Origin: Mesorhizobium sp.
GTDB taxonomy: Bacteria; Pseudomonadota; Alphaproteobacteria; Rhizobiales; Rhizobiaceae
DNA: 64,000 nt
Direction: 5' to 3'
Assembly (NCBI GenBank): GCA_004963905.1
Contig: SUGL01000011.1
Span: 98,429 to 162,428 of the forward strand
The notes under the pieces are model-generated. The model did no database searches and was not told the DNA's origin. It worked only from the letters and a program-made list of their open reading frames with translations. The position numbers and the translations under genes are program-made. Of the stretch, positions 7,677-27,558 are shown piece after piece (within the stretch, counting starts at the first letter, position 1; every line of letters begins with the position of its first letter).

Positions 7677-8099
7677 ATGAAAGCACGCGTCAAATGGGTC
7701 GAGGAACGCACCTTTGTCGGCGAGTCCGGCAGCGGTCACAAGGTCGTGCTGGGCACGGCGCATGGGCCGGAAGGCCGAACGCCGGGACCAAGCCCGATGG
7801 AGCTGGTGCTGATCGGCACCGGCGGCTGCTCGGCCTATGACGTCGTCCACATCCTCGAAAAGGGCCGCGAGGCGGTCGAGGACTGCGTGGTCGAGCTCGA
7901 TGCCGATCGCGCGGAAACCGAGCCGCGCGTCTTCACCCGCATCCACATGCATTTCATCGTCAAGGGCCGGGCGCTGTCGCGCGACAAGGTGAAACGCGCG
8001 ATCGACCTCTCGATCGAGAAATATTGCTCGGCGACGGCCATGATGGCCAAGACGGCGACCGTCACGCATGATTTCGAGGTCGTCGATGCGGCCAAATAA
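7677..8099 (+). CDS. OsmC/Ohr-family protein
   Basis: 140 residues. The OsmC fold is recognised from GRTPGPSPMELVLIGTGGC and the two reactive cysteines Cys51 (GGCSAYDVV) and Cys117 (EKYCSATAMM). In this family the two cysteines reduce organic hydroperoxides in a thiol-dependent reaction. It is the YhfA/OsmC-like subgroup rather than classical Ohr. It stands 30 bp behind the DUF2306 gene and may share its transcript. Confidence 0.9.
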   Translation: MKARVKWVEERTFVGESGSGHKVVLGTAHGPEGRTPGPSPMELVLIGTGGCSAYDVVHILEKGREAVEDCVVELDADRAETEPRVFTRIHMHFIVKGRALSRDKVKRAIDLSIEKYCSATAMMAKTATVTHDFEVVDAAK

Positions 8100-8104
8100 G
8101 GGAA

Positions 8105-8150
<46 letters not shown>

Positions 8151-23164: not shown

Positions 23165-24577
23165 TTGGCAGCGTTCGACGAAATGCTTCCGGAAGCCTCC
23201 GGATTGAGAAGACCATATCAGGCTTACGATCGCTGGCTGAAAGAACAGGATCCGGCCAGGCTTACCGAGAAAATGCAGGACGCCGAGCGCGTCTTCCGCA
23301 AGACCGGCATCACCTTTGCCGTCTATGGCGAGCAGGAAGCCTCCGAGCGGCTGATCCCTTTCGATATCGTCCCGCGCATCATCTCCGGCCAGGAATGGCG
23401 CCGGCTGACGCAGGGCATAGAGCAGCGCGTGCAGGCGCTGAACGCTTTTCTCGACGACATCTATCACCGCCAGGAAATCCTGCGCGCCGGGCGCATTCCC
23501 AAGGAGCTGGTGGCGAAGAACGAAGCGTTCCTGCCAGAGATGATCGGGGTGAGGCCGCCAGCCGGTGTCTACACCCACATCATCGGCGTCGACATCGTCC
23601 GCATCAGCGAGAACGAATTCTACGTGCTCGAAGACAATGCCCGCACGCCGTCGGGCGTCTCCTACATGCTGGAGAACCGCGAGACGATGATGCAGCTCTT
23701 CCCCGAGCTGTTCCAGCAGGTCAAAGTGCGGCCGGTCGAGAACTATCCGCAGCTGCTGCGCCAGTCGCTGGCAGCGGTAAGGCCGCAGAGCGCCAAGGGC
23801 GCGCCGACCATCGCGGTGCTGACGCCGGGCAGCTACAACTCAGCCTATTTCGAGCATGCTTTCCTCGCCGACCAGATGGGCGTGCAACTTGTCGAAGGAC
23901 AGGACCTGCGCGTGGTCGACGGCCATGTCACGATGCGCACCACCGAAGGCTACAAGCAGATCGACGTGCTTTACCGGCGCGTCGACGACGCCTTCCTCGA
24001 TCCGCTGACCTTCCGGCCGGACTCCGCCCTTGGCGTGCCGGGCATCATGGACGTCTATCGAGCCGGCAACATCACGATTGCGAATGCGCCGGGAACCGGT
24101 ATCGCCGACGACAAGGCGATCTATTCCTATATGCCCGAGATCGTCGAGTTCTACACCGGCCGCAAGGCGATCCTTGGCAACATCCCGACCTGGCGCTGCT
24201 CGGAGCCGGACAGCCTGAAATATGTGCTGGAGCACATTGGCGAGCTCGTGATCAAGGAAGTGCACGGCTCCGGCGGCTACGGCATGCTGGTCGGTCCAGC
24301 GGCGACCAAGAAGGAATGTGAGGCGTTCGCCAAGAAGCTGCAGGCCAAGCCCGGCAATTACATCGCCCAGCCGACGCTGGCGCTGTCGACCTGCCCGATC
24401 CTCACCGAGAAGGGCCTGTCGCCGCGGCATGTCGATCTCAGGCCTTATGTGCTCGTCTCGGACCGCATCCAACTCGTGCCTGGCGGACTGACCAGGGTAG
24501 CGCTCAAGGAGGGGTCGCTGGTTGTGAACTCGTCGCAAGGTGGCGGGACGAAGGATACGTGGGTGCTGGATGATTAA
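23165..24577 (+). CDS. circularly permuted ATP-grasp protein (DUF404/DUF407 type)
   Basis: 470 residues from TTG 23165 behind GAGGGAG; no ATG in frame is better placed. The permuted ATP-grasp family is recognised from YGEQEASERLIPFDIVPRII, VQALNAFLDDIYHRQEIL, YVLEDNARTPSGVSYMLENR and, at the end, VIKEVHGSGGYGMLVG and LVVNSSQGGGTKDTWVL. ATP-grasp enzymes form peptide-like bonds through acyl phosphates. Comparative genomics in the literature links this family with alpha-E proteins, transglutaminases and the Anbu peptidase, all of which follow here. The gap to alpha-E holds an inserted element. Confidence 0.92.
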   Translation: MAAFDEMLPEASGLRRPYQAYDRWLKEQDPARLTEKMQDAERVFRKTGITFAVYGEQEASERLIPFDIVPRIISGQEWRRLTQGIEQRVQALNAFLDDIYHRQEILRAGRIPKELVAKNEAFLPEMIGVRPPAGVYTHIIGVDIVRISENEFYVLEDNARTPSGVSYMLENRETMMQLFPELFQQVKVRPVENYPQLLRQSLAAVRPQSAKGAPTIAVLTPGSYNSAYFEHAFLADQMGVQLVEGQDLRVVDGHVTMRTTEGYKQIDVLYRRVDDAFLDPLTFRPDSALGVPGIMDVYRAGNITIANAPGTGIADDKAIYSYMPEIVEFYTGRKAILGNIPTWRCSEPDSLKYVLEHIGELVIKEVHGSGGYGMLVGPAATKKECEAFAKKLQAKPGNYIAQPTLALSTCPILTEKGLSPRHVDLRPYVLVSDRIQLVPGGLTRVALKEGSLVVNSSQGGGTKDTWVLDD

Positions 24578-24580
24578 GAT

Positions 24581-24604
24581 GAGCGAGTAGCGAATAGCGA
24601 GTAG
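24581..24604 (+). repeat. left heptamer-repeat end of the inserted element
   Basis: GAGCGAGTAGCGAATAGCGA-GTAG: three to four imperfect units of GCGAGTA/GCGAATA. The reverse complement occurs at the right end. Confidence 0.85.
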
Positions 24605-24616
24605 GGAAAGAGGGGA

Positions 24617-24982
24617 ATACGACGGCAATCTTACCGAGACCTGATCGTTTGGAAGGCAGCCTTGAAGTTGGCGGCAAATTGCTACTCGGCCACGAAAGCT
24701 TTTCCGAACAGCGAAGCTTACGGGATGACCTCTCAGATACGACGCTCGGCGGCTTCCATCGCAGCGAATGTTGCAGAGGGTCACGGAAGAGAAAGTACAG
24801 GAGCCTTTATTCAATTTCTTCGCACGGCGTAGGGCTCTCTGAAAGAGTTGGAGACTCATCTCATATTAAGTGGAGAGGTAGGATTGATGGTCGAAGCGGA
24901 GGTCACCAGCTTGCTTGGCCAAACTGATGAAATCGGGAAAATGCTGCGTTCGATGATCAGGAGCCTGCAACAAAAGTCATGA
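24617..24982 (+). pseudogene. four-helix-bundle (23S rRNA intervening-sequence type) protein, internal stop
   Basis: One frame reads RRQSYRDLIVWKAALKLAAN, then TKAFPNSEAYGMTSQIRRSA, ASIAANVAEGHGRES, FIQFLRTA, a TAG at 24830-24832 (codon 72), then GSLKELETHLILSGEVGL and DEIGKMLRSMIRSL to TGA at 24982. This matches the TIGR02436/S23-IVP family along its whole length. The stop replaces the residue that is usually Arg or Gln before GSL. No ATG is available; ATA at 24617 follows AAGAGGGG and may be a mutated start. About 121 codons; both defects point to decay. Confidence 0.85.
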
Positions 24983-24995
24983 AGTCCTTTTTCCG

Positions 24996-25026
24996 CTACT
25001 CGCTACTCGCTATTCGCTATTCGCTC
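24996..25026 (-). repeat. right heptamer-repeat end of the inserted element
   Basis: Four to five units of CTACTCG/CTATTCG, inverse of the left end, with unit order slightly different from the left copy. It ends 19 bp before the alpha-E start codon. Confidence 0.85.
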
Positions 25027-25045
25027 GACACTGGAGCAAGCTGAT

Positions 25046-25987
25046 ATGCTCTTGGGCCGCACCGCCAACGGTCTCTACTGGATGAACCGCTATATCGAGC
25101 GGGCCGAAAACATGGCGCGCCTGGTCGATGCCGGCCTGCGCATGGCGCTGACGCGTACTCAGAACGCATCGGAGGAATGGAATTCGGTGCTGCTGAGCGC
25201 CGGCTCCGACGTTGCCTTCAGCCAGAAATACCAGGATTACACGGCCGCCAACGTCTCGGACTTCCTGGTGCGCGACACCTCGAACCCGTCGAGCACGATG
25301 TCGTCGATCGAGACGGCGCGCAACAATGCGCGCATGGTGCGCACCGCGCTGACCCGCGAAACCTGGGAGAGCATCAACGAAGCATGGATGTCGCTGAAGC
25401 GCATGCTGGCAAGGCCGATCGACGAGCGCGACCTGCCGACCGTGCTCGACGCCATCAAGCGCGAGACGGCGCTGATCCGCGGTTCGTTCTACGGCACCAT
25501 GCTGCGCAACGAGATCTTCGACTTCTCGCAGCTCGGCACCTATGTCGAGCGCGCCGACAACACGGCCCGCATCCTCGACGTCAAATACTACGTGCTCTTG
25601 CCGTCGATCTCCTGGGTCGGTTCGACGCTCGACAATTATCAATGGGAATCGATCCTGCGCTCGGTGTCGGCGCATCGCTCCTACCGCTGGGTCTACGACG
25701 CCGACTACAAGCCGACCAACATCGCAGACTATCTGATCCTCAACGTGCGCATGCCGCGCTCGCTGACCTTCTGCTATCGCTTCCTCGGCGAGCATTTGAA
25801 GTTCCTCGCCGACGATTATGGCGAGCGCCACGCCTGCCACGCCACGGCCGAGAAGATCCAGGCCATGCTGAAGAAAGGGTCGATCAAGGATATTTTCGAC
25901 CATGGCCTGCACGAATTCCTGGCGGAATTCATTCGCGACAACACCAGGCTGGGCGACGAGATTGCCCAGGATTATCGGTTCTATTGA
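25046..25987 (+). CDS. alpha-E domain protein
   Basis: 313 residues, almost wholly alpha-helical. The N-terminus MLLGRTANGLYWMNRYIERA then ENMARLVDAGLRM, the GSFYGTMLRNEIFDFSQLGT stretch, YVERADNTARILDVKYY and NVRMPRSLTFCYRFL are the alpha-E (DUF403) signature. The biochemical role is unknown. The family nearly always sits beside a permuted ATP-grasp gene and a transglutaminase, as here, and is thought to act with them in making or modifying a peptide. The transglutaminase follows at 14 bp. Confidence 0.93.
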   Translation: MLLGRTANGLYWMNRYIERAENMARLVDAGLRMALTRTQNASEEWNSVLLSAGSDVAFSQKYQDYTAANVSDFLVRDTSNPSSTMSSIETARNNARMVRTALTRETWESINEAWMSLKRMLARPIDERDLPTVLDAIKRETALIRGSFYGTMLRNEIFDFSQLGTYVERADNTARILDVKYYVLLPSISWVGSTLDNYQWESILRSVSAHRSYRWVYDADYKPTNIADYLILNVRMPRSLTFCYRFLGEHLKFLADDYGERHACHATAEKIQAMLKKGSIKDIFDHGLHEFLAEFIRDNTRLGDEIAQDYRFY

Positions 25988-26826: not shown

Positions 26827-27558
26827 ATGACCTATTGCGTCGGCCTCAAGATCGATCGCGGGCTCGTGTTCATGTCGGACACGCGCACCAATGCCGGCAT
26901 GGATTCGATCTCGACCTTCAAGAAGATGCATGTCTGGGAAGAGCCGGGAGAGCGCGTCATCGTGCTGATGTCGGCGGGCAATCTTGCCACGACCCAGGCC
27001 GTCGTCAGCCTGCTCGACGAACGCAACAAGGCGGTCGGCGACCGCCACGAGAAGCTGCTCGAAACGCCGTCCATGTACCAGACCGTGCGGCTGGTCGGCG
27101 AAACTGTGAAAGAGGTGATCGCGCAATCGTCGCCAACCGGCGACCAGGCCGATTCCTATTTCAACGCCTCCTTCATCCTCGGCGGGCAGATCAAGGGCAG
27201 CCCACCACGGCTTTTCATGATCTATCCCGAGGGCAATTTCATCGAGTCGACCGACGACACGCCGTTTTTCCAGATCGGCGAGACGAAATACGGCAAGCCG
27301 ATCATCATCCGCGCCTACGACCGCGCGATGAGCCTGGCCGAGACGGTGAAGCTGCTTCTGGTTTCCTTCGACTCGACGCTGAAGTCGAACCTGTCTGTCG
27401 GCTTGCCCCTCGATCTGCTCTTCCTGGAGAAGGACGCGCTCAAGGTCGGTCTCAAGAAGCGGTTCGGCCAGGACGACCAGTATTATCGCGCCATTTCCGA
27501 GGGCTGGTCGAACGCGCTTAAAACGGCTTTCGCCAGCTTGCCGGACTTTCCGGTGTAG
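26827..27558 (+). CDS. Anbu-type proteasome-related peptidase
   Basis: 243 residues. The chain starts MTYCVGLKIDRGLVFMSDTR; removal of Met would expose Thr2 as the N-terminal nucleophile, with Asp18 and Lys32/33 (STFKKMHVW) in the usual Ntn positions. The family's ILGGQIKG, MIYPEGNFIE and GETKYGKPII stretches are present. Anbu assembles into open helical or ring oligomers, and its substrate is unknown. It is the last gene of the ATP-grasp/alpha-E/transglutaminase cluster. Confidence 0.92.
   Translation: MTYCVGLKIDRGLVFMSDTRTNAGMDSISTFKKMHVWEEPGERVIVLMSAGNLATTQAVVSLLDERNKAVGDRHEKLLETPSMYQTVRLVGETVKEVIAQSSPTGDQADSYFNASFILGGQIKGSPPRLFMIYPEGNFIESTDDTPFFQIGETKYGKPIIIRAYDRAMSLAETVKLLLVSFDSTLKSNLSVGLPLDLLFLEKDALKVGLKKRFGQDDQYYRAISEGWSNALKTAFASLPDFPV

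Follow-up and report, generated by a model that had tools for sequence, protein, structure and literature searches.

IVP genes came to notice in the 1990s and, to our knowledge, still have no assigned function; heptamer repeats are reported from several genomes as a feature without an explanation. The two meet in the intervening sequence (IVS) of Coxiella, which is 428 nt long, carries tandem heptamers in front of an S23 open reading frame, the number of heptamers varying between strains, and is closed by a 28-bp terminal stem at which RNase III cuts (PMC4990558). The S23 protein of Coxiella is reported as decaying, and earlier proposals that IVSs were mobile are cited in the paper on this IVS (PMC4990558). 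IVP genes are also reported from cas loci (PMC3936711) and have been linked to CRISPR (PMC10910872). An excess of heptamer repeats has been noted in many genomes (PMC4692102, PMC4679880), the TAACTGA heptamers of Beggiatoaceae being another such family (PMC4679880). In two Xanthomonas genomes 186 and 183 arrays of the GGGANTN type are described, each with at least one GGGAATC, and 70 and 75 cases are inverted pairs; these arrays are intergenic, close to stop codons and, according to the same account, generally not associated with mobile elements (Rehm et al., PMC4692102). Neither S23 nor four helix nor XCC0516 appears as a term in the main text of that paper.

The window, by which is meant the whole stretch of 64,000 nucleotides analysed here, holds an S23/IVP gene with one TAG and no ATG between inverted heptamer arrays at 24581-25026. 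Upstream is a circularly permuted ATP-grasp gene (Pfam; 23165-24577, plus strand) with a TAA stop codon (24575..24577, plus strand) that ends 3 nt before the left (5') G-rich arm. This arm (GAGCGAGTAGCGAATAGCGAGTAGGGA; 24581..24607, plus strand) comprises about 3.9 heptamers GCGARTA, that is GCGAGTA or GCGAATA, and the right (3') C-rich arm (24994..25026, minus strand) comprises about 4.6 units of the reverse complements, both arms being defined by arm alignment and by TRF, which places the left 7-mer array at 24582-24608 and the right one at 24994-25025. Across 27 nt (24581-24607 and 25000-25026) the arms are 93% complementary. The broken frame between them (23S_rRNA_IVP, TIGR02436/PF05635; 24626..24982, plus strand) was read from its TIGR02436 match and translation and represents a near-complete S23 domain, scoring 119.3 bits against a curated cut-off of 24, with the TAG at 24830-24832 (plus strand) and the final stop at 24980-24982. 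The remaining spacer (25027..25045, plus strand), where a GGAG resembling a ribosome-binding site was picked out by eye, runs up to the start of the Alpha-E gene at 25046 (25046-25987; Pfam); it resembles the spacer of S23-filled relatives and differs from that of empty sites. Beyond the Alpha-E gene is a proteasome-family gene (26827-27558), named Anbu in the first-pass annotation, which had been made from the letters of the window and had proposed an insert with an S23 frame between inverted heptamer arrays, a proposal that the arm complementarity and the TIGR02436 score bear out. Rfam returned no match over 24400-25200. Elsewhere in the window, a one-sided TAGGCAG array of 6.6 copies (8099-8150) starts directly after a TAA stop and has no inverted partner in the neighbourhood inspected; its unit is that of another S23 element of the home genome (L001).

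Within the genus the spacer between the ATP-grasp and Alpha-E genes was classed by eye in 50 cases, the 30 best and 20 hand-chosen, from 95 genomes with a match. S23 is present in 13, two arrays without S23 in 20 and the right array only in five, while nine spacers are bare at 24 nt and three contain something else. Given the bare spacer in nine of the 50, the 24581-25026 block is an insert, and the expectation of the first-pass annotation that related genomes would lack the whole block has been realised, with an empty site of the same species seen at another locus. The contrary pattern that it had named, in which all close relatives would carry the insert with an intact gene and S23 genes elsewhere would be free of repeats, did not occur. 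Two side observations concern this site. The S23-less array pairs have in common, at 12 loci (L045, L051, L055, L056, L059, L060, L061, L063, L068, L069, L080 and L084), a short core starting ATGCC, which may be a small conserved peptide or a remnant. In 11 of the S23 copies (L026, L035, L036, L038, L042, L044, L049, L057, L062, L066 and L070) no in-frame ATG, GTG or TTG is present upstream of the domain's conserved start, yet purifying selection acts on the frame, and translation may begin at a non-standard codon downstream of the G-rich arm.

The gene had been called a pseudogene, a description that holds for the window copy with its one TAG and fails for its relatives: in a same-species copy (strain G002) and in the other relatives inspected the S23 frame is uninterrupted, though likewise without an ATG. 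Four intact relatives are assigned by Pfam to 23S_rRNA_IVP with 114.9-135.6 bits against a cut-off of 33.8, together with weak bAvd (PF22296) scores below the cut-off of that model. The median dN/dS is 0.064 in a first site group (16 sequences, 120 pairs, range 0.014-0.45) and 0.061 in the group of the window site (11 relatives, 50 pairs), and purifying selection acts on the protein that the gene encodes. S23 is a conserved protein, decayed in the window copy, rather than pseudogene cargo. Structures of S23 relatives have been solved (2GSC, which is XCC0516, and 2RLD), and the XCC0516 protein is said to consist of five four-helix bundles.

How far the arrays accompany the gene was examined at increasing distance. 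In the home genome each of the four S23 copies has arms, and each has a unit of its own (TAGGCAG; TAGCGAR; mixed TAGGGAG/GGGGAGTA; and the 8-mer GAGGAACT). S23 is present in 82 of 99 genus genomes; at the 29 top genus loci outside the home genome arrays were seen by eye wherever the sequence reached the flank. Named genomes, when scanned, yielded at least 578 S23 relatives, of which the best 80 were taken for analysis; by record title these belong to Alphaproteobacteria, Cyanobacteria, Acidobacteria, Bacteroidetes, Planctomycetes, Chloroflexi, Clostridia, Fibrobacteres and others, with one Methanophagales archaeon bin among them. Phages gave no S23 match. The left flank was aligned with the reversed right flank, and the resulting arm score, which measures inverted pairing only, reaches the threshold of at least 24 at 65 of 78 loci with full flanks, across phyla, and falls below it at 13. 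The corresponding figures for controls are 0 of 73 distal flanks, 0.8% of shuffles and 6.6% when flanks are mixed between loci. As a check on independence, 14 alphaproteobacterial loci of the 80 lying in one common neighbourhood, one locus per neighbourhood was kept and 49 of 60 remain at or above 24. In the genus 38 of 39 copies, a few of them inspected before, reach the threshold, so that the inverted 7-mer arrays predicted at other S23 genes by the first-pass annotation are there. On both sides of S23 the autocorrelation has maxima at lags of 7 and 14, the lag-7 signal being 0.40 and 0.39 on the two sides as against about 0.26 distally. Arrays were also found at 166 of 191 loci in a larger, overlapping set, at 16 of the 17 S23 copies of a single genome, at 26 of 30 loci in a further set made up in part of the same loci and, by eye, at eight plasmid loci (two of which are a segmental duplicate). 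Across 68 loci the arms stand a median of 29 and 28.5 nt from S23 on the two sides and the space between them fits S23 only, the median element size being about 470 bp. Gene and arrays thus form one unit in most of the S23 loci examined, and the feature in the window is a decayed member of this widespread element.

What is it about the heptamers that is conserved, when each copy seems to have its own? Among 139 loci with arrays, a set that leaves out the genus loci L012-L040 and counts some loci twice, the period is 7 in 111, 8 in 22 and neither in six. The units follow a common grammar of approximately AG(G/T)NANT, that is A, G, G or T, any base, A, any base and T, with an EM score of 263 against 190 +/- 2.6 for permuted units; the same grammar is recovered from 38 non-Pseudomonadota loci alone (100.5 against 74.3 +/- 2.5). 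The more alike two S23 proteins are, the more alike are their arrays (Mantel r 0.30, 131 loci, p 0.001), also within one genome (r 0.52, 15 of 17 copies, p 0.001). The unit varies between copies, keeps one grammar, is matched between left and right, and tracks the protein lineage. Agreement between protein and unit is expected from co-inheritance alone and is compatible with recognition without proving it, and the matching of left and right arrays could partly reflect quasi-palindrome correction. A purely mutational origin, in which slippage and template switching would make inverted arrays in any spacer and S23 would merely be resident, could draw on the over-representation of heptamer repeats in many genomes (PMC4692102, PMC4679880) and on the differing array lengths of orthologous plasmids (L093, L098). 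It is nevertheless very improbable in view of the complete absence of such pairing from the distal flanks of the same loci, the single grammar across phyla, a unit that follows the protein lineage, and empty sites that, where inspected, are without arrays.

Filled and empty states of the same site were compared in several settings. At a site between genes read by us as ACAD and HIBADH, eight of the 30 best loci have S23 and one has arrays alone, while 21 have a spacer of 42-48 nt, including that of the same-species strain G002. Azospirillum lipoferum 4B has empty 23S copies on AZO_p1 and AZO_p3 and a filled one on AZO_p2, where a 473-nt element replaces a 19-nt hairpin between flanks 99-100% identical to those of the empty copies; Rfam recognises 23S rRNA in both states. 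One element thus takes the place of the tip of a 23S rRNA hairpin, and this copy (L097) lies within 23S, the window copy in the ATP-grasp/Alpha-E spacer. The flanks of the Azospirillum rRNA operon match only three of the screened loci, over 52-82 nt each, about 2.5 kb from S23 and within the tRNA portion of the query. On Nostoc plasmids about 42 nt between a stop codon and a start are replaced by the element (flanks 94% identical), with an S23-less unit at the same site of a third plasmid, and on Calothrix plasmids the element stands in place of about 11 nt, stop codon included (flanks 90% identical), its end providing a new in-frame stop. The close empty plasmid sites were found by BLAST and the replaced lengths counted by hand. 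Filled and empty sites differ, then, by replacement of about 11-42 nt without target duplication. The duplication for which the first-pass annotation had proposed to search the junction was not found in these three comparisons, two of which rest on flanks about 90-94% identical, a short target being replaced instead; the target site duplication of DDE-type insertion sequences and MITEs is likewise missing from all three.

The 5' arm starts no more than 10 nt from a co-directional stop codon at 36 of 61 loci, and at 26 of 45 when each neighbourhood contributes a single locus. The figure for random positions is 1.3%; co-directional frames of at least 150 codons were considered and the random positions include gene interiors. 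The suggestion in the first-pass annotation of a mobile unit gains replacement-type filled and empty sites, movement itself being an inference, and loses the notion of a pseudogene cargo. Since many genus copies occupy a few conserved sites, movement must be rare. Seven close S23 copies in Calothrix PCC 7103 (L264-L270; five of them identical), with decayed arrays, were considered as a case of recent movement and rejected, as all are part of one larger unit that includes an ISL3-type transposase; because they adjoin this transposase, some spread is by hitch-hiking.

Array pairs also occur without the gene. In the home genome there are short pairs with the same unit as S23 arms and no gene (L008, L010), and a probe for one arm type, allowing up to two mismatches, found matches in 52 of 99 genus genomes, its reversed control finding none. 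An inverted partner scoring at least 24 accompanies 27 of 30 fetched arrays, and gene-less pairs of the same unit are dispersed in the same genomes. Arrays of GCGARTA number 2.59 per genome with a GCGA-type S23 at the window site and 0.69 per genome without (22 versus 77 genomes, p 1.5e-5), a comparison uncorrected for relatedness, made after removal of the two own-arm matches and from an S23 list compiled by hand, in which S23 elsewhere or with another unit counts as absence; the unit of seven of the 22 GCGA-type genomes had at first been assumed and on checking is GCGARTA. At two orthologous sites of such mini-elements, followed by eye in 15 hand-chosen relatives with 29 placed loci, array pairs are present in 25, the right array only in one, and three are empty. 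In the same orthologous spacers (L404-L433) the unit families differ between lineages, and the cores differ even within one species, as if units had been swapped in place.

Occupancy of these two sites in most relatives inspected is what would be expected if the arrays were binding sites or terminator-like hairpins that regulate their neighbours while nothing moves, and intergenic arrays that hug stop codons, a position described also for the Xanthomonas repeats (PMC4692102), point the same way. Fixed regulatory sites are hard to reconcile with a conserved site that switches unit family between lineages and changes its core within a species, with whole S23 blocks that are present in one relative and absent from the next, and with an element inside 23S rRNA, and this explanation is considered improbable.

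The crystallised S23 protein XCC0516 comes from Xanthomonas, which brings the element into contact with the published heptamer repeats of that genus. In the XCC0516-like family S23 is present in 125 of 297 genomes; among the 30 best loci arms occur at 28, and two or more GGGANT units on each side at 26. As these 30 all lie in one neighbourhood, they represent one ancient insertion. The four S23 genes that are 90-92% identical to XCC0516, presumably from Xanthomonas themselves, are flanked by GGGANTN arms, the left of which includes GGGAATC; this is the array type found dispersed in two Xanthomonas genomes (PMC4692102). In sampled stretches of five genomes with S23, GGGANT arrays number 23, 80, 121, 44 and 0 per Mb, and in those of three genomes without it 0, 28 and 0, a relation between array density and S23 presence that is suggestive and, with one exception on each side, not clean. 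In cyanobacteria, GGGGAYT arrays gave 33, 54 and 3 matches in three genomes and none in two others. Of 30 such array loci (16 distinct arrays, several truncated at contig ends) none has S23 within up to 1.5 kb or an inverted partner of at least 24 in the expected orientation, and two (L304, L329) have an inverted partner in the other orientation. An S23 copy with one TGA in an Oscillatoriaceae genome (L498, G245) has GGGGATT in both arms, a unit like STRR, which we take to be the GGGGAYT heptamer. The link between cyanobacterial STRR and S23 is weak.

At which level, DNA or RNA, might the arms act? An RNA-level element, with arms that form a stem cut by RNase III, an S23 protein that binds RNA, and spread through RNA, perhaps with a reverse transcriptase in trans in the manner of Avd in diversity-generating retroelements, would be in keeping with the RNase III-cut stem of the Coxiella IVS (PMC4990558), with the stable RNA fold of the window element (z -4.1), with an S23 gene mostly co-directional with the upstream gene, and with the kinship of the S23 and Avd families (PMC10053308) that the weak bAvd scores also indicate. 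The mini-elements of the genus, in a set of 25 that includes orthologous copies, favour it too, with 29 G.U against 11 A.C arm mismatches. At the S23 loci, by contrast, arm mismatches are symmetric, with 134 wobble against 133 A.C (42 versus 43 loci), as they are in 17 mini-element pairs of the XCC0516-like family (16 versus 15). At S23 loci, then, the arms do not seem to be under selection for an RNA stem, DNA recognition with replacement is favoured, and an RNA-level element appears unlikely.

The preferred reading is that of a compact element, made up of S23 and inverted heptamer arrays and present in the window as a decayed copy, which probably spreads through recognition by S23 of its own arrays. 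We infer that the element is mobile, that S23 binds the arrays and that a host enzyme acts on them. S23 would then be a specificity factor, the chemistry falling to a putative host enzyme, and could promote the copying of array-bearing units, its own and the gene-less ones, much as RAYT does for REPINs. The simplest route might lie in replication or repair, when array-bearing single strands could anneal; a target that is replaced and not duplicated would thereby be explained. The arrays might lengthen and shorten by slippage. Since S23-array elements lie widely outside 23S, the 23S IVS is one location of a general element, and a 23S IVS with an S23 frame would be its rRNA-located form.

A broader proposition, held tentatively and at slightly less than even confidence, is that this is a transposase-free mobile class found in many phyla and perhaps in archaea, consisting of a pentameric four-helix-bundle protein and copy-specific inverted heptamer arrays, that it inserts by replacing short segments at stop codons and the tips of rRNA hairpins, that it drives gene-less pairs in trans, and that it is the source of 23S IVSs and of the heptamer repeats of Xanthomonas and perhaps of other genomes. 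A single element behind IVP genes and heptamers gives a testable picture of protein binding, heptamer abundance and split rRNA, and IVP genes in cas loci may be passengers in operon spacers (PMC3936711). If true, movement with neither target duplication nor a recognisable transposase would be of general interest.

With regard to precedent, the first-pass annotation knew of no description of heptamer-bounded units of this kind, which has to be narrowed, as the heptamers of the Coxiella IVS (PMC4990558) and the Xanthomonas heptamer family (PMC4692102) were already published; it stands for S23 elements outside rRNA, whose association with heptamer arrays was not recognised in the literature searched, preprints and most subscription journals falling outside its scope. 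The Avd protein of diversity-generating retroelements belongs to a related four-helix-bundle family (PMC10053308), but the S23 arms leave no room for a reverse transcriptase and the bAvd scores are below cut-off. The GGGAATC and GGGGA(T/C)T repeats of Xanthomonas and Nostoc resemble the arms in their GGGANTN heptamers, inverted pairs and position close after a gene, but were described as G-quadruplex repeats that in general show no association with mobile elements (PMC4692102). With REPIN/RAYT there is the likeness of a gene between short inverted repeats, inverted pairs of which also lie scattered through the genome without the gene (PMC3116915, PMC2817692), whereas the S23 element has no tyrosine (Y1) transposase between its arms (68 loci), ends in tandem heptamer arrays with copy-specific units, and replaces its target. 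The 23S IVS has the S23 family, the size, the inverted ends and the heptamers before the reading frame in common with it, an S23 frame within about 0.4-0.5 kb having inverted complementary ends and heptamers here as well, and the Azospirillum 23S copy has such arrays; it differs in that the other copies examined lie outside 23S and in that the protein is conserved here, that of Coxiella being reported as decaying. The S23/heptamer element therefore extends the known IVS element, and would constitute a new kind if mobilisation in trans were confirmed.
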